A stretch of 6,305 nt of DNA, taken from Thermoleophilaceae bacterium. Lineage in GTDB: Bacteria > Actinomycetota > Thermoleophilia > Solirubrobacterales > Thermoleophilaceae. Shown one piece after another: positions 1-6,305 of the stretch. The stretch lies in the NCBI GenBank assembly GCA_013812485.1, contig JACCTJ010000246.1, forward strand, positions 1 to 6,305, given 5' to 3'. A model generated the notes under the pieces. That model ran no database searches and had not been told where the DNA came from. It saw nothing but the letters and a program-made list of their open reading frames with translations. The position numbers and the translations under genes are program-made. The stretch's first letter is position 1; each line of letters starts with the position of its first letter.

Positions 1-57
1 CGCGTCGGCGTCAAGCTCGCCTCCGATGGGCTCCTCGGGACGCGGCGGACCGCCTGA
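1..57 (+). CDS. possible C-terminal tail of an upstream gene (partial)
   Basis: Frame 1 is open from the window edge to a TGA at 55-57 and gives 18 residues starting RVGVKLASDG. Only the tail is present, so no family can be assigned. CoxE-like VWA genes are often preceded by a MoxR-type AAA ATPase gene, and such an ATPase would be a natural neighbour, but these residues do not identify one. If it is real, it overlaps the ATG used below for the VWA gene by 32 bp, which would argue for a later VWA start. An 18-codon open frame is expected by chance in DNA this GC-rich. Confidence 0.22.
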   Translation, partial: RVGVKLASDGLLGTRRTA

Positions 58-1552
58 GGGCGGCGATCGCGCTCCGCGGCCGCCCGACGGCTTGCGGGCG
101 GCCTCACCTCAGAGCGGCCTGATCGGCGGCGCTCGTCGCTCCGGCGGCCTGTACGGCGGCCTGCCTTCCCGTCAGGGGCCGCCCGGCTTCGACGCACGGG
201 TGCTCGAGCTCGGCGACGAGCTGCGCCGCGAGGGCCTGGCGATCGGGACCTCGGAGCTGCTCGACGCCTTTGGCGCCCTGAGCGAGGTCGGCTGGGCGGA
301 GCCCGTCGCTTTCCGCGAGGCGCTCGCGACCACGCTGGCCAAGTCGCAGGAGGACCGGCGCGTGTTCGACGCCCTGTTCGACCGGTTCTTCTTCCGGGCC
401 GTGGAGCGCGAAGCGGTCGAGAAGGGCCTGACCGAGCGCCGCTTATCGGCCGACGGCGAGGGCGACGGCCGGGAGATCGACTTCGACTCGCTGCGCGAGG
501 CCGTCCGGGCGGCCATCCGCGGGGGCTCCGACGGCGAGATGCGCGACCTGGCCCGGCTCTCGATCGCCGCGCTCGGGCGCCAGGGCGAGGGGTCGGGCGT
601 GGTCGGCGTCGACGTTCAGCGCATCCGCCGCTCGCTCGGCCTGAGGGGCGATCCGACCGGCGAGGCCGAGGCCCGCGGCGATCCCGAGGCACTCCCGACC
701 GAGCGCCTGCGCGAGTTCGAGCGCCACCTGCGGCTCGAGCTCGAGCGCGAGAGCGTCGAGCGGACCCGGTCGCTGCCGCCCGCGCGACCGCTGCGCGAGC
801 TCGACCGGGCGCTGCCGAGCGCGCCGCTCCAGGATCTGGCCGCCGTTCACCGCGTCGCTGCGCAGCTTAAGCGCCGCCTCGCGACCCAGCAACGGGCGGC
901 CGGAGGCCGACGCCGCACTCACGTGGTCGACGTGCGCCGGACCATGCGCGCCTCGCTCGAGACCGGCGGCGTCCCGCTGCGCCTGCACCACCGCCCCCGC
1001 CGACCGCGCCGGCCCGAGGTCTACCTCCTGTGCGACGTCTCCACGAGCGTTACGAGCGCGAGCGTGTTCTTCCTCTCTGTCCTGCACGCTCTCCACGACG
1101 CCTTCCGCAAGCTGCGCTCGTTCGTCTTCGTCGAGCGAATCTCCGAGGTCACCGAGCTGTTCGCCCGCGAGCGCTCGTTCGAGGCCATTTCCCGCGCAAT
1201 CGCCAGCGATGCCGGGGTGGCCGACGTCTCGGGCTACACCGACTACGGGCGCGTGTGGCTCGAGTTCCTGGCCGAGACCGTGGACGACCTCGGCCCGCGC
1301 TCGACGGTGATCGTCCTCGGGGACGCGCGCACGAACGGGCGCGAGCCCCACGCCGCCGCCTTCGGCCGCGTGGCCGAGCGGGCCGGACGGACCTTTTGGA
1401 TGAACCCCGAGCCGAAGCTCTACTGGAACTACGGGGACTCGGTCATGCGTGCCTACGAGCCGTACTGCGACGGCGTGTTCGAGTGCTGGTCGACGCGGCA
1501 GCTCGAAGGGTTCGTGAACGCCCTGACCTCAACCCGGGTCGCTGCGCCCTGA
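26..1552 (+). CDS. CoxE-like VWA domain protein
   Basis: Encodes up to 508 residues resembling the CoxE family of VWA proteins, which usually work with a MoxR-type AAA ATPase in maturing or inserting cofactors into metalloenzymes such as CO dehydrogenase. The N-terminal conserved part begins near residue 55 (FDARVLELGDELRREGL) and is rich in charged helices. A basic, proline-rich linker lies around residues 290-330. The VWA domain starts near residue 330. Its MIDAS motif is intact: D337-x-S339-x-S341, Thr405 in GYTDYG, and Asp433 in VLGDARTN. No signal peptide or membrane segment is seen, so it is probably cytoplasmic. The start is uncertain: ATG 26 has no Shine-Dalgarno sequence, the frame stays open to the window edge, and residues 1-50 are low-complexity Gly/Pro/Arg. 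GTG at 200 lies at the edge of the conserved part. No oxidoreductase gene is visible here, so the target enzyme is unknown. Confidence 0.85.
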   Translation: MGSSGRGGPPEGGDRAPRPPDGLRAASPQSGLIGGARRSGGLYGGLPSRQGPPGFDARVLELGDELRREGLAIGTSELLDAFGALSEVGWAEPVAFREALATTLAKSQEDRRVFDALFDRFFFRAVEREAVEKGLTERRLSADGEGDGREIDFDSLREAVRAAIRGGSDGEMRDLARLSIAALGRQGEGSGVVGVDVQRIRRSLGLRGDPTGEAEARGDPEALPTERLREFERHLRLELERESVERTRSLPPARPLRELDRALPSAPLQDLAAVHRVAAQLKRRLATQQRAAGGRRRTHVVDVRRTMRASLETGGVPLRLHHRPRRPRRPEVYLLCDVSTSVTSASVFFLSVLHALHDAFRKLRSFVFVERISEVTELFARERSFEAISRAIASDAGVADVSGYTDYGRVWLEFLAETVDDLGPRSTVIVLGDARTNGREPHAAAFGRVAERAGRTFWMNPEPKLYWNYGDSVMRAYEPYCDGVFECWSTRQLEGFVNALTSTRVAAP

Positions 1553-1573
1553 GGGGATGGTGAGCACTCGCCT

Positions 1574-1587
1574 CGAGAGTTCTCTCG
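1574..1587. repeat. 14-bp perfect palindrome upstream of the DGPF promoter
   Basis: CGAGAG-TT-CTCTCG is an inverted repeat 22 bp after the VWA stop codon and 7 bp upstream of the candidate -35 element at 1595. As RNA the loop would be very tight and there is no following T-run, so an intrinsic terminator is unlikely. As DNA it is the right size for a dimeric regulator half-site pair, but no matching copy lies upstream of the VOC promoter. Its function is unknown. Confidence 0.35.
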
Positions 1588-1594
1588 TTCGCGA

Positions 1595-1624
1595 TGTAGA
1601 GATCGACGCGACCGCTCCGACCCA
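1595..1624 (+). promoter_or_regulatory. candidate ECF42-type promoter of the DGPF-sigma operon
   Basis: The -35-like element TGTAGA (1595-1600) is followed by a 17-nt spacer and a -10-like CGACCCA (1618-1624). The element matches the one at 3330-3359 at 25 of 30 positions, including all of GCTCCGACCCA. From memory, ECF42 sigma factors recognise TGTCGA at -35 and a CGA-containing -10, which fits. Transcription would start near 1630, leaving a leader of roughly 45 nt before the DGPF ATG at 1674. The -35 differs from the consensus by one base (A for C). Being upstream of the sigma factor's own operon, it implies autoregulation. Confidence 0.68.
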
Positions 1625-1660
1625 CTGGCAAGAGCACCCCCGCCGGGGCGCTGAACCGAA

Positions 1661-1668
1661 AGAGGGTG
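1661..1668 (+). promoter_or_regulatory. ribosome binding site of the DGPF gene
   Basis: The purine-rich AGAGGGTG lies 5 nt before ATG 1674. It fixes the start there rather than at the in-frame ATG at 1557, which would place the promoter element inside the coding sequence. Confidence 0.7.
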
Positions 1669-1673
1669 ACGCA

Positions 1674-2036
1674 ATGAAGTACATGATCATGACGTTCGGC
1701 GAGGCCTCAGCCATGATGGAGACCAAGTCGGCGGACTGGATCAGGAAGATGATCGAGTTCATGCACACGCTCAACGACGATCTCCGTGAGGCCGGCGAGC
1801 TCGTCGACGCGCAGGGGCTCACCGACGGAAGCCAGGCCAAGACCGTCCGCTTTCAGAACGGCACCCCCGTCCCTACCGACGGGCCGTTCGCCGAATCGAA
1901 GGAATCGCTCGTCGGCTACTGGATCGTCGACGTCGAGGGCGAGCCGCGGGCGATCGAGATCGCCTCGCGGATCGTCGCCTTCGTCGAAGCGCCGATCGAG
2001 GTGCGCCGGGTCGCGGACGGGCCGCCAGAGGTGTGA
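1674..2036 (+). CDS. YCII-related (DGPF) domain protein
   Basis: A 120-residue protein of the YCII/DGPF family, a small alpha-beta fold of the dimeric ferredoxin-like type. It begins with the characteristic MKYMIMTFGE strand, continues with a helix around residues 20-42 ending in EAGELVDAQGL, and carries the signature DGPF at 69-72 within TDGPFAESKE, then GYWIVDVE. The length is normal for the family and no membrane segment is present. In actinobacteria such genes are the standard neighbours of ECF42 sigma factors, although their biochemical role is not established. Here the stop TGA (2034-2036) overlaps the GTG start of the sigma gene, so the two are almost certainly co-transcribed and translationally coupled. 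The start at ATG 1674 is supported by the Shine-Dalgarno sequence and by the conserved N-terminus. Confidence 0.93.
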   Translation: MKYMIMTFGEASAMMETKSADWIRKMIEFMHTLNDDLREAGELVDAQGLTDGSQAKTVRFQNGTPVPTDGPFAESKESLVGYWIVDVEGEPRAIEIASRIVAFVEAPIEVRRVADGPPEV

Positions 2037-3250
2037 GCACCGAAGCTCGCATCGAGGACCTGCTGCGTGAGCTCGCGCCGCAGGTCCTCGCAATGCTCGT
2101 ACGGCGGCACGGGCAGTTCGACGCCTGTGAGGATGCCGTCCAGGAGGCACTGGTCGCGGCGGCGCTGCAGTGGCCGAAGGAGGGCGTCCCCGACAGCCCG
2201 CGATCATGGCTCGCGACCGTCGCCTCCCGCCGTCTGGTCGACGAATGGCGGAGCGAGGGCGCCCGGGAGCGTCGGGAGGAGAGCGCCGCGGCGCTGGAGC
2301 TGCCTGTCCAGACGCATCCTCCCGCCGAGGACGACACGCTCACGCTGCTCTTCCTCTGCTGCCACCCATCGCTCTCCCCGCCGTCGCAGCTGGCCCTCAC
2401 GCTGCGTGCGGTCGGCGGGCTGTCGACGGCGGAGATCGCGCACGCCTTTTTCGTTCCCGAAGCCACGATGGCCCAGCGGATCAGCCGCGCGAAGCGGAGC
2501 ATCAAGAGCACGGGCATCCGCTTCGACCTGCCGCCGGAGCCGGAGCGGGCCGACCGCCTGCGCGTCGTACTCCACGTGCTCTACCTCGTCTTCAACGAGG
2601 GCTACACGGCGAGCTCGGGCCCTGCGCTGCAGCGGGCCGACCTCACAAACGAGGCGATCCGGCTGACGCGCATGCTCCGCCGACGCCTGCCCGAGGAGGG
2701 CGAGGTCGCCGGTCTGCTGGCGCTCATGCTGCTGACCGATGCCCGGCGGGCGGCCCGGACGGAAGTGGACGGGTCGCTCGTCCCGCTCGACGAGCAACGT
2801 CGCGAGCTCTGGAACACGGCCCAGATCGAGGAGGGCGTAGCGCTGGTCACCCGCACCCTCGGCACGGTGCCGATCGGGCCCTACCAGCTCCAGGCAGCGA
2901 TGGCCGCGGTGCACGACGAGGCGCCGAGCGCAGCGGAGACGGATTGGCCGCAGATCCTGGCGCTGTACGAGGTCCTCGAACAGGTGTCGCCGAGTCCGGT
3001 CGTGACGCTCAATCGAGCCGTTGCCGTCGCCATGGTCGACGGGCCCCGTGCCGGCCTCGCCCTGCTCGGAACCCTCGACGCGGAGGACCGCATGGCCCGC
3101 AACCATCGCCTCGATGCCGTGCGGGGCCACCTGCTCGAGCTCGCTGGGGACACGGACGCGGCGCGCGAGGCCTACGCTCGGGCGGCCAGGATGACCGCGA
3201 GCGTTCCAGAGCAGCGCTATCTCGCGCTGCGGGCCGCCCAGGTCGGTTAG
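2033..3250 (+). CDS. ECF42-like RNA polymerase sigma factor with C-terminal extension
   Basis: A 405-residue sigma-70 family factor. Region 2 spans about residues 10-75, with FDACEDAVQEAL and then SWLATVASRRLVDEWR. Region 4 spans about 100-160, with the helix-turn-helix LSTAEIAHAFFVPEATMAQR and SRAKRSI. The rest is a 240-residue extension (DUF6596-like plus TPR-like helices): LYLVFNEGY at 183-191, LLALMLLTDARR near 228-239, GPYQLQAAMAAVH at 282-294, and a final helical pair ending GDTDAAREAYARAA. This is about twice the size of a plain ECF factor and typical of the ECF42 group, in which the extension is thought to replace an anti-sigma factor as the control element; no anti-sigma gene is seen here. 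The GTG start overlaps the DGPF stop in the sequence GTGA. The reading frame is intact. Its probable targets are the two promoter elements at 1595 and 3330. Confidence 0.94.
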   Translation: MSTEARIEDLLRELAPQVLAMLVRRHGQFDACEDAVQEALVAAALQWPKEGVPDSPRSWLATVASRRLVDEWRSEGARERREESAAALELPVQTHPPAEDDTLTLLFLCCHPSLSPPSQLALTLRAVGGLSTAEIAHAFFVPEATMAQRISRAKRSIKSTGIRFDLPPEPERADRLRVVLHVLYLVFNEGYTASSGPALQRADLTNEAIRLTRMLRRRLPEEGEVAGLLALMLLTDARRAARTEVDGSLVPLDEQRRELWNTAQIEEGVALVTRTLGTVPIGPYQLQAAMAAVHDEAPSAAETDWPQILALYEVLEQVSPSPVVTLNRAVAVAMVDGPRAGLALLGTLDAEDRMARNHRLDAVRGHLLELAGDTDAAREAYARAARMTASVPEQRYLALRAAQVG

Positions 3251-3264
3251 TCATGGCTTCTTGC

Positions 3265-3282
3265 GCAGGTCTCCGAACCTGC
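3265..3282. terminator. weak hairpin after the sigma gene
   Basis: GCAGGT-CTCCGA-ACCTGC is a perfect 6-bp stem with a 6-nt loop, 14 nt past the sigma-factor stop. No T-run follows, so it would be at most a weak or Rho-assisted terminator, or an RNA 3'-end stabiliser. Its position between two separately promoted units is the main support. Confidence 0.3.
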
Positions 3283-3329
3283 CGCGCGCCAATGCGCCGT
3301 TACCGCTCAAAGCCCGTTTTCTTGGCGCA

Positions 3330-3359
3330 TGTCGAGAACCACGCGGCGGCTCCGACCCA
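3330..3359 (+). promoter_or_regulatory. candidate ECF42-type promoter of the VOC gene
   Basis: The -35-like TGTCGA (3330-3335), a 17-nt spacer and the -10-like CGACCCA (3353-3359) repeat the element at 1595-1624 with five mismatches in 30. The -35 here equals the TGTCGA I recall for ECF42 promoters exactly. Transcription would start near 3365, giving a leader of about 60 nt before ATG 3426. A 7-bp inverted repeat, ATGCGCC (3292-3298) and GGCGCAT (3324-3330), ends at the first base of the -35. The site places the VOC gene under the neighbouring sigma factor. Confidence 0.7.
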
Positions 3360-3375
3360 GTCGAATAACCACCAC

Positions 3376-3382
3376 AGGAGGT
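3376..3382 (+). promoter_or_regulatory. orphan perfect Shine-Dalgarno sequence in the VOC leader
   Basis: AGGAGGT is a full anti-16S match, yet no ATG, GTG or TTG follows at a usable distance; the nearest start-like codon is ATC at 3389. It lies in the predicted leader of the VOC mRNA, 43 nt before the real start. It may be a chance match, a ribosome standby site, or the remnant of a lost start. Confidence 0.3.
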
Positions 3383-3412
3383 CGCGACATCGGCGATCTC
3401 GACGCGAACGAG

Positions 3413-3420
3413 AAGAGGAG
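3413..3420 (+). promoter_or_regulatory. ribosome binding site of the VOC gene
   Basis: AAGAGGAG ends 5 nt before ATG 3426 and fixes that start. Confidence 0.7.
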
Positions 3421-3425
3421 TCAAC

Positions 3426-3818
3426 ATGACCACCCAGGCATCCCTCATCACCGGCACCGACTTCGTCATGGTGCCCACGAAGGACTTCGACGCGGCGGTG
3501 GAGTTCTTCGGCACGGTGCTCGGCCTACCGTTGTCGAAGCGCTACGGGCAGTCGCCCGGGGCCGAGTTCGAGACCGGCAACCTCACGCTCAGCGTGATGG
3601 AGTCCGAAGCGTTCGGGATCGAGTTCACCCCGAACAGGAACCCGATCGCGTTGCGCGTCAGCGACGTCGACGCCGCTCGGAGCGAGCTCGAATCACACGG
3701 CGTCTCGTTCGTTACCCAGTTCGACAGCGGAGTCTGCCATCAGGCCATCTTCCACGACCCGGACGGCAACGCGTTCGTGCTGCACCACCGCTACGCGCCG
3801 CCCTCGCCCAAAGGCTGA
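3426..3818 (+). CDS. VOC (glyoxalase/bleomycin-resistance fold) family protein
   Basis: A 130-residue single-domain protein with two beta-alpha-beta-beta-beta halves. The first half has FVMVPTKDFDAAVEFFGTVLG (about 13-33); the second has IALRVSDVDAARSELESHGV (74-93) and the closing DPDGNAFVLHH (111-121). Length and layout are normal. The four positions that usually hold metal ligands in glyoxalase-type members are, by my alignment, Phe13, Ser56, Pro73 and Val118, so a canonical His/Glu metal site is absent. The protein may bind a small molecule or use another chemistry; the substrate cannot be named. The Shine-Dalgarno sequence is strong. It follows the sigma gene after 175 bp and has its own copy of the sigma-module promoter, so it is a likely regulon member. 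It converges with the MerR gene, leaving 30 bp between the two stops. Confidence 0.9.
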   Translation: MTTQASLITGTDFVMVPTKDFDAAVEFFGTVLGLPLSKRYGQSPGAEFETGNLTLSVMESEAFGIEFTPNRNPIALRVSDVDAARSELESHGVSFVTQFDSGVCHQAIFHDPDGNAFVLHHRYAPPSPKG

Positions 3819-3848
3819 CCTCGGCTGGTCCGACGCTCCCCGGCTGCG

Positions 3849-4694
3849 CTAGTGGCGGCGCGAGCGGTGCCGGCCCTCGGCGCCTCGCTCGAGCTCACGC
3901 CCGAACGCCTGCTCGACGGCGCGGGTCATCTTGCGCTGGAAGACGGCGAGCAGCGCCTCCGAGGCGAGCGGCCGAACCCGCTCGAGGGCCTCCCGGACCT
4001 CGGGGAGGCGCTCGTCCGGGCGCCCGGCCGCCTCGAACGGCCGCCAGAGCTGCTCGAGGAAGAGCTTGACGAAGGCCTCGGCCACGCCCTCGGAGTGGCG
4101 GCTGAGCTGTTCGAGGACACGGATGGTGGCCTCAGGCGCCACTCCGAGCCGGGCGAGCTCCTCGCCGGCGCTGAGCAGGGTCGGGCTTGGGACCTCGTAG
4201 CGGCCCTGGCCCACGGGCGCCAACAGGCCGAGCTTGATCGACTTGGCCAGCAGCTTTCCCTCGTAGGCGTCACCGAAGCGCGCGGGGAGGTCGGCCTCGT
4301 CGAGGAACTCGGGAGCCTCCTGCTCGAACGGCGTGGTCAGCGCGCGCTTGAAGCCGAGCAGCTCCTCCGTCGAGCCGGCACCCGCCCCGGCCAGCAGGCG
4401 GTCGATCGCCTTGAGGTTGAAGCCGTCGGCCTGCATCTCCGCGATCAGGCGCAGCCGGGTCACGTGCTCGCCCCCGTAGAAGCCGGTGCGACCCCGGATG
4501 GTCGGCGGGGGCAGCAGCCCGCGCGACTGGTGCGCGCGGATGTTGCGCACGGTCATGCCGGTCTTTCCTGCGAGCTGCTCGATGGTCAGCTCGTCCTCTG
4601 CGCCCGCCTCGGCGCGGCCGCCGCCACTCGCGCCGTTGCCTGCGGCGCCGGCGTCCTCCCCCTCCTCGGCGAAGTGGGTGTTTCTACTCGCCAT
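3849..4694 (-). CDS. MerR-family transcriptional regulator
   Basis: A 281-residue regulator. Residues 1-34 are a Gly/Ala/Glu-rich, probably disordered leader. The winged helix-turn-helix spans about 36-105: LTIEQLAGKTGMTVRNIRAHQSRGLLPPP, then the wing GRTGFYGGEHVTRLRLIAEM and the helix GFNLKAIDRLL. The C-terminal effector region (about 110-270) is mostly helical, ends in the basic tail RHRSRRH and contains no cysteine, so thiol-based metal sensing as in MerR, CueR or ZntR is excluded. The ligand is unknown. The start is set by an in-frame TAA not far upstream; ATG 4694 is the first start after it and has no Shine-Dalgarno sequence. The gene is divergent from the broken membrane-protein gene and could regulate it from the shared 126-bp gap, or regulate itself. 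Confidence 0.9.
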   Translation of the reverse strand: MASRNTHFAEEGEDAGAAGNGASGGGRAEAGAEDELTIEQLAGKTGMTVRNIRAHQSRGLLPPPTIRGRTGFYGGEHVTRLRLIAEMQADGFNLKAIDRLLAGAGAGSTEELLGFKRALTTPFEQEAPEFLDEADLPARFGDAYEGKLLAKSIKLGLLAPVGQGRYEVPSPTLLSAGEELARLGVAPEATIRVLEQLSRHSEGVAEAFVKLFLEQLWRPFEAAGRPDERLPEVREALERVRPLASEALLAVFQRKMTRAVEQAFGRELERGAEGRHRSRRH

Positions 4695-4708
4695 CGGTCG
4701 GGAACTTT

Positions 4709-4739
4709 ACCGTAGCCATGCTCCATCGTTTGATGTAAC
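4709..4739 (-). promoter_or_regulatory. possible promoter of the MerR gene with a 19-bp spacer
   Basis: Read on the minus strand, GTTACA (4739-4734) and TACGGT (4714-4709) are separated by 19 bp, the long spacer typical of promoters acted on by MerR proteins. The region is locally AT-richer than its surroundings. The implied start of transcription is only about 8 nt before ATG 4694, which fits the missing Shine-Dalgarno sequence and suggests a leaderless or near-leaderless mRNA. Both hexamers are weak, so the call is tentative. Confidence 0.3.
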
Positions 4740-4751
4740 AGAAATAGGGGA

Positions 4752-4770
4752 CGGGGTTGCGGAAACCCCG
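4752..4770. repeat. 7-bp inverted repeat in the divergent gap
   Basis: CGGGGTT-GCGGA-AACCCCG is a perfect stem with a 5-nt loop, between the MerR start and the membrane-gene start. On the minus strand it is followed by TCCCCTATTTCT, so it could end minus-strand transcripts entering from the right. It could also be an operator shared by the divergent genes. Nothing else decides between these. Confidence 0.4.
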
Positions 4771-4808
4771 AGGGGGCGCGGTCCGCCAGCGTCCCGGCCA
4801 CCGACGAG

Positions 4809-4815
4809 AAGGAGA
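4809..4815 (+). promoter_or_regulatory. ribosome binding site of the broken membrane-protein gene
   Basis: AAGGAGA lies 5 nt before ATG 4821. This strong site shows where the original gene began, even though the frame from this ATG stops after 26 codons. Confidence 0.6.
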
Positions 4816-4820
4816 TCGAG

Positions 4821-5816
4821 ATGGAAGCCATCCGGTCCGCAGGGCGATCGCCGGCCTCGCCGCCGGCGAGCCCGCGGGCGGAGCGGCCACCGAGGACCTG
4901 ATCCCCGCGACGATCGCCGCGGCGCTGCTCTCGATCGGCGCCGTCGCCTTCGGCGAGGCCCATCGCCGCGGCCGCACGCAGGTCCTGAGTCGGCTCGCCG
5001 CGTTCGCCGGCCGCGTCCGGGTCTGCCCGGCTGGGTCGCCCTGCCCTCGCTGATGGCTGCGGTCGCGCTGGTCACCGCGTGCTTCGGCTTCCCCACATCG
5101 ACGACGGCCGCGACGCCGGCCCGTTCGCCAACACCTCCCACTTCTTCATCCTCGCCGGCCTCGGCGGCATCGTGCTCTCGGGCACACGGCCATGCTGCTC
5201 GGCGCCGGCAGCGAGCGCACGCGCACCTCGCTCGAGCTGCTCGAGGGCTGGCACGCGCCGCTCGGCGGCGTGCTGATCTTCCTGTGCGCCGGGTTCTACG
5301 TCCTCCTCAACGGGACGATGGCCACCGTACGCCTCGATCCCGCCGCGCGCCGACGGCGCCGAGTGGATGCGCGTGCTCGCCTGGCAGGGGGGCGGCAGCC
5401 GCCTCGAGCATCTGCGCGAGTCCGCACCCGGCACCTACCGTACGATGCGACCGCTGCCCGTGCACGCGAGTGGAAGGCGTTCGTGCGCCTCCACGACGGC
5501 CGCTCGCCGCGCGCACTGCCGATCTACATGCCCCGCGAGACCGCCATCCCCGCCCCCGAGATCCCCGCCGAGCCGGCCTTTGCGCGCTCCTTCGTGCCCG
5601 ACAAGCGGCCTCCAGCGCGAGGCGGTGGGCTCGAGCGCGCTCCAGCTGCCGGCCTACGGGCTGCTCGCAGGCGTAGCGGCGGTCTGGCTCGCGACGATGA
5701 CCCGGCTCGGCCGGGCGGGCATCGATCCGACGGGCGGCCCGCCCGAGCGCGGCACCTCGCGCCGGCGGGAGGTCAGCACGCCCGCAACACGGGCCGGCGG
5801 TCTCACCGCCTCGTGA
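4821..5816 (+). pseudogene. frameshifted, internally deleted multi-pass membrane protein
   Basis: Starts at ATG 4821 (MEAIRSA). A coherent protein can be followed only by changing frame seven times: frame 3 to about 4838; frame 2 to about 5020 (AIAGLAAGEPAGG, then the helix LIPATIAAALLSIGAVAFGE); frame 1 to about 5092 (GWVALPSLMAAVALVTACFGF); frame 3 to about 5186 (HIDDGRDAGPFANTSHFFIL); frame 2 to about 5345 (LLEGWHAPLGGVLIFLCAGF); frame 3 to about 5467 (EWMRVLAWQGGGSRLEHL); frame 2 to about 5610 (EWKAFVRLHDGRSPRALPIY); frame 3 to TGA 5816 (LQREAVGSS, then the helix LLAGVAAVWLATMTRLG). The HIDDGRDAGPFANTSHFF part resembles, from memory, uncharacterised actinobacterial membrane proteins that have extra residues between FGF and HID and many more helices. 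The C-terminal EWMRVLAW/EWKAFVRLHDG part may be a second domain or a second gene joined by deletion. Function unknown. Confidence 0.65.
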
Positions 5817-6305
5817 CGACCGACCTGGGCGGCAGGCGCGTCCTTCTGACGGGCGGACTCGCGTGCTCGTCAACAACGCGGGCATCGGCACCGCGAGCGA
5901 GATCGGACAGGGCTGTTGCGACCTCGAGCGGGCCGTACTCGAGGTCAACCTCTTCGGCGCTTGGCACGTCGCCGCCGCCGCCCTTCCCCACCTGCTCGAG
6001 ACCCGAGGCCAGGTGGTCAGCGTGGCCTCGCTGCTAGCGGTGGTGACCGTCCCCTACTCCGCCAGCAAGCGCGGCCTGTGCGCGCTCGGTGACACGCTCC
6101 GGCTCGAGTACGGTGACCGTCTCGCGGTGACCACGGTCTACCCCGGCTACGCGGCCACGCCGATCCACGGCCCCGCCGCGGAGCGCTCGGGCCAGAGCCT
6201 GGCCGGGATCGCCCCCGAGGAGACGCCGCAGGACGCCGCGCGCGCGATCGAGCGCCGCCCGCGCGACACCGCGAACACCTGGCAGGGCGCGGTCGTGCTC
6301 CGCGC
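5813..6305 (+). pseudogene. short-chain dehydrogenase/reductase, internally deleted, runs off the window
   Basis: GTG 5813 overlaps the preceding TGA 5814-5816 and begins VTTDLGGRRVLLTGG in frame 2, the first strand and opening of the TGxxxGxG nucleotide-binding motif of classical SDR enzymes. The frame then degenerates. In frame 1 from about 5863 the SDR resumes at VLVNNAGIG, with EVNLFGAW (the conserved Asn), VVSVAS (the probable catalytic Ser), YSASK (catalytic Tyr and Lys) and VYPGYAATPI, open to base 6305. Only about 17 bp separate the two parts, where an intact enzyme has roughly 55-60 residues, including the rest of the glycine motif, the cofactor-selecting second strand and the DVT region. 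As read, it could not bind NAD(P). Substrate unknown. The overlap suggests it was co-translated with the membrane gene. Confidence 0.75.

Follow-up and report, generated by a model that had tools for sequence, protein, structure and literature searches.

A duplicated 30-bp element predicted to serve an ECF42-type sigma factor connects a DGPF-sigma operon with a VOC gene in a Thermoleophilaceae genome

The window analysed in this study, a stretch of 6,305 nucleotides from a Thermoleophilaceae bacterium (assembly GCA_013812485.1, contig JACCTJ010000246.1), encodes an ECF42-type sigma factor that is located between two copies of a 30-bp element. One copy precedes the gene of a DGPF/YCII-domain protein, the other the gene of a protein of the VOC (glyoxalase/bleomycin-resistance) fold (Table 1). 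The GTG start codon of the sigma gene overlaps the stop codon of the DGPF gene, and the elements begin 79 bp and 96 bp upstream of the DGPF and the VOC start, respectively. Judged from the sequence, the two elements probably act as promoters for the sigma factor whose gene lies between the two, and this factor would activate both its own DGPF-sigma operon and the VOC gene; we assign this reading a probability of roughly 0.86. The ECF42 group is described in the sections of PMC8999054 and PMC6180224 drawn on here by a C-terminal TPR extension, a YCII/DGPF gene as neighbour and the lack of an identifiable anti-sigma factor, with a predicted control by protein interaction. The protein of the window has the ECF core, sigma regions 2 and 4 (PF04542 and PF08281 above cut-off), with the end of region 4 near residue 156. 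Its 405 aa include a long C-terminal extension (about 200 residues are expected for the group), in which DUF6596 occupies residues 175-275; TPR families were not among its Pfam matches at E 0.001. The DGPF/YCII gene lies directly upstream of the sigma gene, an anti-sigma gene was not found among the six scanned proteins of the 6.3-kb contig, and the DGPF gene is preceded by a TGTCG-type -35 (TGTAGA in element 1) and a CGWC-type -10 with a spacer of 17 bases. The draft genome (1,814,152 bases in 369 contigs, 75 % complete) contains one DUF6596 gene, the sigma gene of the window. The single solved relative of the DGPF protein at E 0.01 was PA1349 (1s7i).

Table 1 Features of the window (positions 1 to 6,305)
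Feature	Position	Strand	Remarks
VWA (CoxE-like) protein gene	26..1552	+	PF05762; left flank, common to same-genus genomes
DGPF-sigma-VOC block	1529..3875		absent from same-genus genome G001; delimited by blastn of the window against L277 and junction alignment
Element 1, TGTAGA-N17-CGACCCA	1595..1624	+	predicted sigma promoter of the DGPF-sigma operon
DGPF/YCII-domain protein gene	1674..2036	+	120 aa, TDGPFAE inside; PF03795, E 5.7e-9
ECF42-type sigma factor gene	2033..3250	+	405 aa; PF04542, PF08281, PF20239 (E 8.5e-35)
Element 2, TGTCGA-N17-CGACCCA	3330..3359	+	predicted sigma promoter of the VOC gene
VOC (glyoxalase/bleomycin-resistance fold) protein gene	3426..3818	+	130 aa; PF00903, E 6.9e-13
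MerR-family regulator gene	3849..4694	-	weakly FtsR-like; PF13411; NF050798 below cut-off

The two elements share 25 of 30 positions, and each has the form TGTMGA-N17-CGACCCA; the coordinates, the pattern and the identical spacing reported in the original prediction were verified. A likeness of the two leaders by chance was ruled out by three controls. The pattern was absent from all 200 dinucleotide-preserving shuffles of the window, and the element pair was the best ungapped 30-base match between the DGPF and VOC leaders (25 identities), compared to a maximum of 22 in 2000 dinucleotide-shuffled leader pairs and of 24 in 2000 random pairs of window segments. Once element 1 was masked, the best leftover match between the leaders was 17 versus a shuffle mean of 17.5, thus the remainder of the leaders is dissimilar, as had been claimed, and a duplication of the whole leader was ruled out. 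The proposed genome search for TGTMGA and CGACCC, performed with a spacer of 17 bases, yielded two exact sites in the draft genome, both in the window, and none for the reversed pattern as control. A regulon spread across this genome was therefore rejected for exact sites. TGTNGA-N15-TCCGAC with one mismatch was present at 18 further sites versus 8 in the control; a few weak extra targets may be among these 18, or additional sites may lie in the missing quarter of the genome.

Conservation of the element was studied at 80 named relatives of the sigma factor. In 61 of these a DGPF-like gene precedes the sigma gene, as defined by tblastn at E 1e-4 within 700 bp upstream, a threshold that distant DGPF relatives may escape. 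TGTNGA-N17-CGAC was located within 150 bp of the DGPF start in 35 of the 61, and 17 more had, over the same distance, a relaxed form that differed by one or two changes, by a spacer of 18 bases or by both. The comparison of upstream regions of related modules, suggested together with the original prediction, hence revealed a site in 52 of 61 DGPF-sigma modules. The controls contained no site in 618 sigma-coding windows, and reverse-strand windows had 6 core and 28 relaxed sites in 6476; these counts take in the window's own locus. The distance between element and DGPF start was 51-87 bp in 36 core cases. Conservation reached beyond the search string, with T22 in all 35 sites, C23 in 34, G20 in 33 and G7 in 29, and the majority sequence of the 35 sites was ATGTCGAGAAC-N8-GGCTCCGACCCA. 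At the 22 conserved positions element 2 in front of the VOC gene agrees with the majority letters of the relatives in 22 of 22 cases, element 1 in front of the DGPF gene in 19 of 22.

The co-occurrence of site and sigma factor was examined in 201 related genomes selected without regard to the motif, which provide a fairer test than the set of 46 genomes treated below. The pattern was TGTMGAR-N14-TCCGACC, and a genome was regarded as carrier of the sigma clade if its best sigma match had at least 430 bits (n = 13). The exact site was present in 9 of 13 carriers versus 5 of 188 other genomes (Fisher p 1.1e-9), in 8 of 12 versus 5 of 188 with the window's own genome left out (p 1.1e-8), and in 9 of 17 versus 5 of 184 for a looser carrier set. 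Counted as sites, 17 of 23 were in the 13 carriers (reversed control 1) and 6 in the other 188 genomes (control 5), so the sites of the non-carriers have to be seen as background. Records titled Actinomycetota, Dormibacterota and Chloroflexi contain members of the sigma clade. In other ECF42 clades of the window's order, TGTCGA-N17-CGTC stands upstream of the DGPF gene (L102, L103, L106) or of the sigma gene (L111); these four loci came from a pattern permitting that form, and no control count accompanies them. Since the site tracks the sigma clade and other ECF42 clades of the order show CGTC, the extended -10 (YTCCGACC) appears to belong to a sigma clade spanning phyla rather than to the host lineage, and the earlier idea of a lineage-specific extension had to be given up. 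The four loci represent sigma clades with differing -10 sequences and are usable for mapping the residues that confer specificity.

Further candidate targets were surveyed in 47 genomes (46 distinct, G215 repeats G188). The genomes were mostly chosen for a site before a DGPF gene or for the best same-order sigma match, thus the sites are a biased sample. The survey gave 78 sites, 76 of them distinct, versus 2 reversed controls. DGPF genes follow 28 of the 76 sites (assigned by identity with known DGPF-upstream sites or by blastp), and 36 of the 48 sites elsewhere lie before genes assigned to Pfam families: RibD_C (12), the VOC superfamily (9, of which six PF06983 and three PF00903/PF18029), MFS (7), DUF899 (2), epoxide hydrolase (2), DUF6069 (2), GST (1) and MDMPI (1). 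PF06983 is presumably part of the VOC fold. For 46 of the 48 non-DGPF sites, a total of 50 frames was scanned against Pfam. The other two, L159 and L177, count as having no family, and so do L147 and L152, where the nearer frame was unassigned and a SpoIIE frame 87 nt and a RimP frame 300 nt downstream, respectively, were disregarded. Gene starts were set mechanically to the first start codon of the open frame; the gap between 30-mer and start was 23-57 nt in 27 of the 36 targets and 5-10 or 78-109 nt in the other nine. Ten survey genomes (81 Mb), picked after the sites were known, contain 425 PF00903 genes, and all three PF00903-type targets are among the 28 non-DGPF sites of these ten genomes. 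Assuming about one gene per kb, 0.15 targets are expected, an approximately 20-fold excess; against all 48 sites the expectation is 0.25 and the excess approximately 12-fold. An element located in G115 about 25 bp beyond the end of the sigma gene is followed by an MFS gene, resembling the VOC arrangement of the window. Two Pseudonocardia loci (L170, L172) have back-to-back elements, with the DGPF-sigma operon in one direction and a RibD_C gene in the other. The recurring set of RibD-C reductase, VOC, MFS, epoxide hydrolase and DUF899 proteins suggests, by family assignment, a response to toxic small molecules. A description of the RibD-C/VOC/MFS set as an ECF42 regulon was not found in the literature searched by title and abstract opening, a scope outside which most subscription papers fall.

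Relatives of the VOC protein are frequent in the order and were detected in 153 of 201 genomes at E 1e-20, the own genome counted. In a weak alignment to FosA chains (1lqk/9e43, E 2e-4) the residues aligned with the FosA ligands are F13, P73 and V118. The metal ligands of FosA itself we take to be His7, His64 and Glu110, so that FosA-type metal ligands are absent from the VOC protein at the aligned positions of this weak alignment. Among 30 VOC rows, the window included, F13 was present in 30 and P73 in 28, and position 118 was mixed (A 9, D 8, M 6, others). D12-F13, E47, C104, H120, R122 and Y123 were invariant in all 30 rows, H121 occurred in 28. The orthologues (window 3426-3818 and L197-L225) share an invariant Cys within DSGVC and a C-terminal HHRY. 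Because the FosA metal-ligand residues are absent at the aligned positions, we infer a ligand-binding or metal-independent role of the VOC protein. The closest VOC orthologue (72 %; L198 in G099) adjoins a pair of distant DGPF (35 %) and sigma (41 %) genes; therefore VOC genes may have become neighbours of ECF42-like genes on more than one occasion.

Several observations weigh against promoters that serve both the DGPF-sigma operon and the VOC gene. Neither a core nor a relaxed site was present in 9 of the 61 DGPF-bearing relatives, of which L023, L070 and L075 appear degenerate by eye. No site was near the sigma gene in the 19 relatives for which a DGPF gene was not detected, among them ten Amycolatopsis loci (L025, L028, L032, L038, L039, L044, L045, L050, L053, L072); up to 2.5 kb from these sigma genes, L034 had one match with a 15-base spacer at a distance of 1.8 kb, and L039 and L050 had reverse-strand matches. 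On the strand of the sigma gene, TGTNGA-N17-CGAC occurred a second time at none of the 80 loci. Four of the 13 carriers lack the exact site, one of which (G060) has TGTCGA-N17-CGAC before its DGPF gene, the site of carrier G087 is not followed by a gene of a known family and appears fortuitous, and 12 of the 48 non-DGPF sites were without an assigned family at the nearest frame and may be chance as well. The consulted part of PMC6180224 reports that RpoE10, the ECF42 factor of Sinorhizobium meliloti, did not raise its own DGPF-sigma operon, thus autoregulation is not universal. For the VOC gene, the element was found upstream of none of the 29 best non-self orthologous loci (up to 300 upstream bases each), and no VOC relative (tblastn E 1e-4, more than 60 residues) was detected around the 80 sigma relatives. 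As all 29 nearest orthologues are without the element, the link of this VOC gene to the element looks local, and the VOC gene as a conserved regulon member was ruled out among the orthologues examined.

The lack of the element in the 29 orthologues would be explained if the DGPF copy alone were functional, the VOC copy decayed or incidental, and the VOC gene expressed otherwise, e.g., by read-through. The scan revealed no terminator in the stretch from the sigma gene to the VOC gene (the fold of 3251-3325 is ordinary, z -1.0), so the VOC gene may be within reach of read-through from the sigma operon, and the distance of 96 bp from element 2 to the VOC start exceeds the 51-87 bp observed before DGPF genes. 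However, the VOC copy is closer to the family consensus than the DGPF copy, a sigma-70-type promoter was not found in 1540-3900, and VOC-superfamily genes lie behind the element at nine sites in other genomes; we consider a non-functional VOC copy very unlikely. The length of the conserved stretch, which exceeds a minimal -35/-10 pair, would also be compatible with binding sites of another regulator, repressor or activator, with the sigma gene as just one of its targets. Such a regulator is equally improbable: the presence of the site tracks the sigma clade across the 201 genomes, the -10 block differs at the four loci of other ECF42 clades (the loci without control count), which fits the sigma factor as the reader, and the two conserved blocks are arranged like an ECF promoter and spaced like mapped ECF42 promoters (PMC6180224, in the sections used). 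The proposed fit of the -35 and -10 parts to the ECF42 motif was corroborated by conservation before DGPF-sigma modules, by the association with the sigma clade and by a spacing equal to that of the S. meliloti promoters, whose 17-base spacers were counted in this analysis from the promoter sequences printed in the available part of PMC6180224.

With the elements taken as promoters of the encoded sigma factor, RNA polymerase carrying this factor would read TGTCGA as -35 and (YTC)CGAC as -10. A signal perceived via the C-terminal extension of the sigma factor, possibly with involvement of the DGPF protein, would set off positive feedback on the operon. Expression of the VOC gene would rise along with it, from a promoter whose agreement with the consensus is no worse, and the VOC protein would bind or act on a toxic small molecule. 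Elsewhere, larger gene sets would be under the control of this sigma clade, including RibD-C, VOC, MFS, DUF899, epoxide hydrolase and GST proteins. In the genome of the window, the block was probably gained as one unit.

The surroundings of the block bear on its origin. In the same-genus genome G001 (L277, G001:C319) the VWA and MerR genes are convergent, their aligned flanks are about 92 bp apart and the block is absent; the same two aligned points are 2347 bp apart in the window. The left-flank VWA protein has 84 % amino acid identity in G002 and 90 % over 209 aa in G001, and the right-flank MerR gene, convergent to the block, encodes a protein 75 % identical to that of L277. A chimeric contig behind the odd neighbourhood is unlikely because a single same-genus contig has matches to both flanking genes, arranged in the same way. 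A target-site duplication was not observed at the block ends, where the longest shared word had 7 bases. In a quick tree of 108 sigma proteins the factor of the window was nearest to rows of Dormibacterota, Chloroflexota and Geodermatophilaceae (77-82 % identity, support 82), and it was placed firmly in a group of 48 rows (support 99) without any row marked as its own order. Same-genus sigma matches were 49 % identical at best in G003 and had a best E of 5.2e-86 in G001, compared to 2.0e-260 for the own match; G002 had no sigma match at 1e-30. Since a same-genus genome has the flanks in close proximity without the block, a gain of the DGPF-sigma-VOC block is the simplest reading, with the VOC gene either brought along or joined later. 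Downstream, window 4740-6305 contains apparent broken membrane-protein frames and a short-chain dehydrogenase fragment truncated at the contig end, which look like pseudogenes or assembly errors.

Tentatively, DGPF-ECF42-VOC might be viewed as a minimal portable regulon, a 2.3-kb block with a sigma factor, its private promoter and one promoter-tagged effector gene, which would add a complete detoxification circuit in one insertion. If the sigma clade and the extended promoter indeed travel together through Actinomycetota, Dormibacterota and Chloroflexota, any gene that gains the 30-bp tag would join the regulon. Little is known of the signals that ECF42 factors respond to or of their roles, and the extended motif is sharp enough for reading likely regulons from genome sequences. 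The two-promoter block is small enough for testing it as a whole in a laboratory host.

Known ECF42 systems share essential traits with the window. In Streptomyces venezuelae, ECF42 factors are reportedly associated with TGTCGA / CGA(T)C motifs before DGPF operons. Sven_0747, Sven_4377 and Sven_7131 of this species are likewise actinobacterial ECF42 factors, and their C-terminal extension is needed for activity there, according to the sections of PMC8999054 drawn on. Pseudomonas putida ECF-10 belongs to the same group, has a gene context said to resemble that of RpoE10 (PMC6180224, in the part consulted), and has been linked to antibiotic and oxidative stress and to biofilm formation in the text available from PMC8999054 and PMC6180224. 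RpoE10 itself shares with the window the YCII/DGPF-sigma pair, the TGTCG-N17-CG(A/T)C geometry and glyoxalase-like targets. Within the sections used of PMC6180224, overexpression of RpoE10 raised two operons, SMc01149-SMc01148 and SMb20475-SMb20474, each with a glyoxalase-like gene and with TGTCGG-N17-CGTC sites at mapped starts; one of them adjoins rpoE10, judged by locus number. The control of glyoxalase-like genes by an ECF42 factor is thus already known from S. meliloti. RpoE10 differs from the window in its alphaproteobacterial host, in the -35 TGTCGG and the -10 CGTC versus TGTMGA and YTCCGACC, and in the own operon that was not raised on overexpression (PMC6180224, same sections). The sigma factor of the window itself comes from a known group; the clade-wide extended motif, the readable regulon and the compact gained block are what the present analysis adds to these systems.

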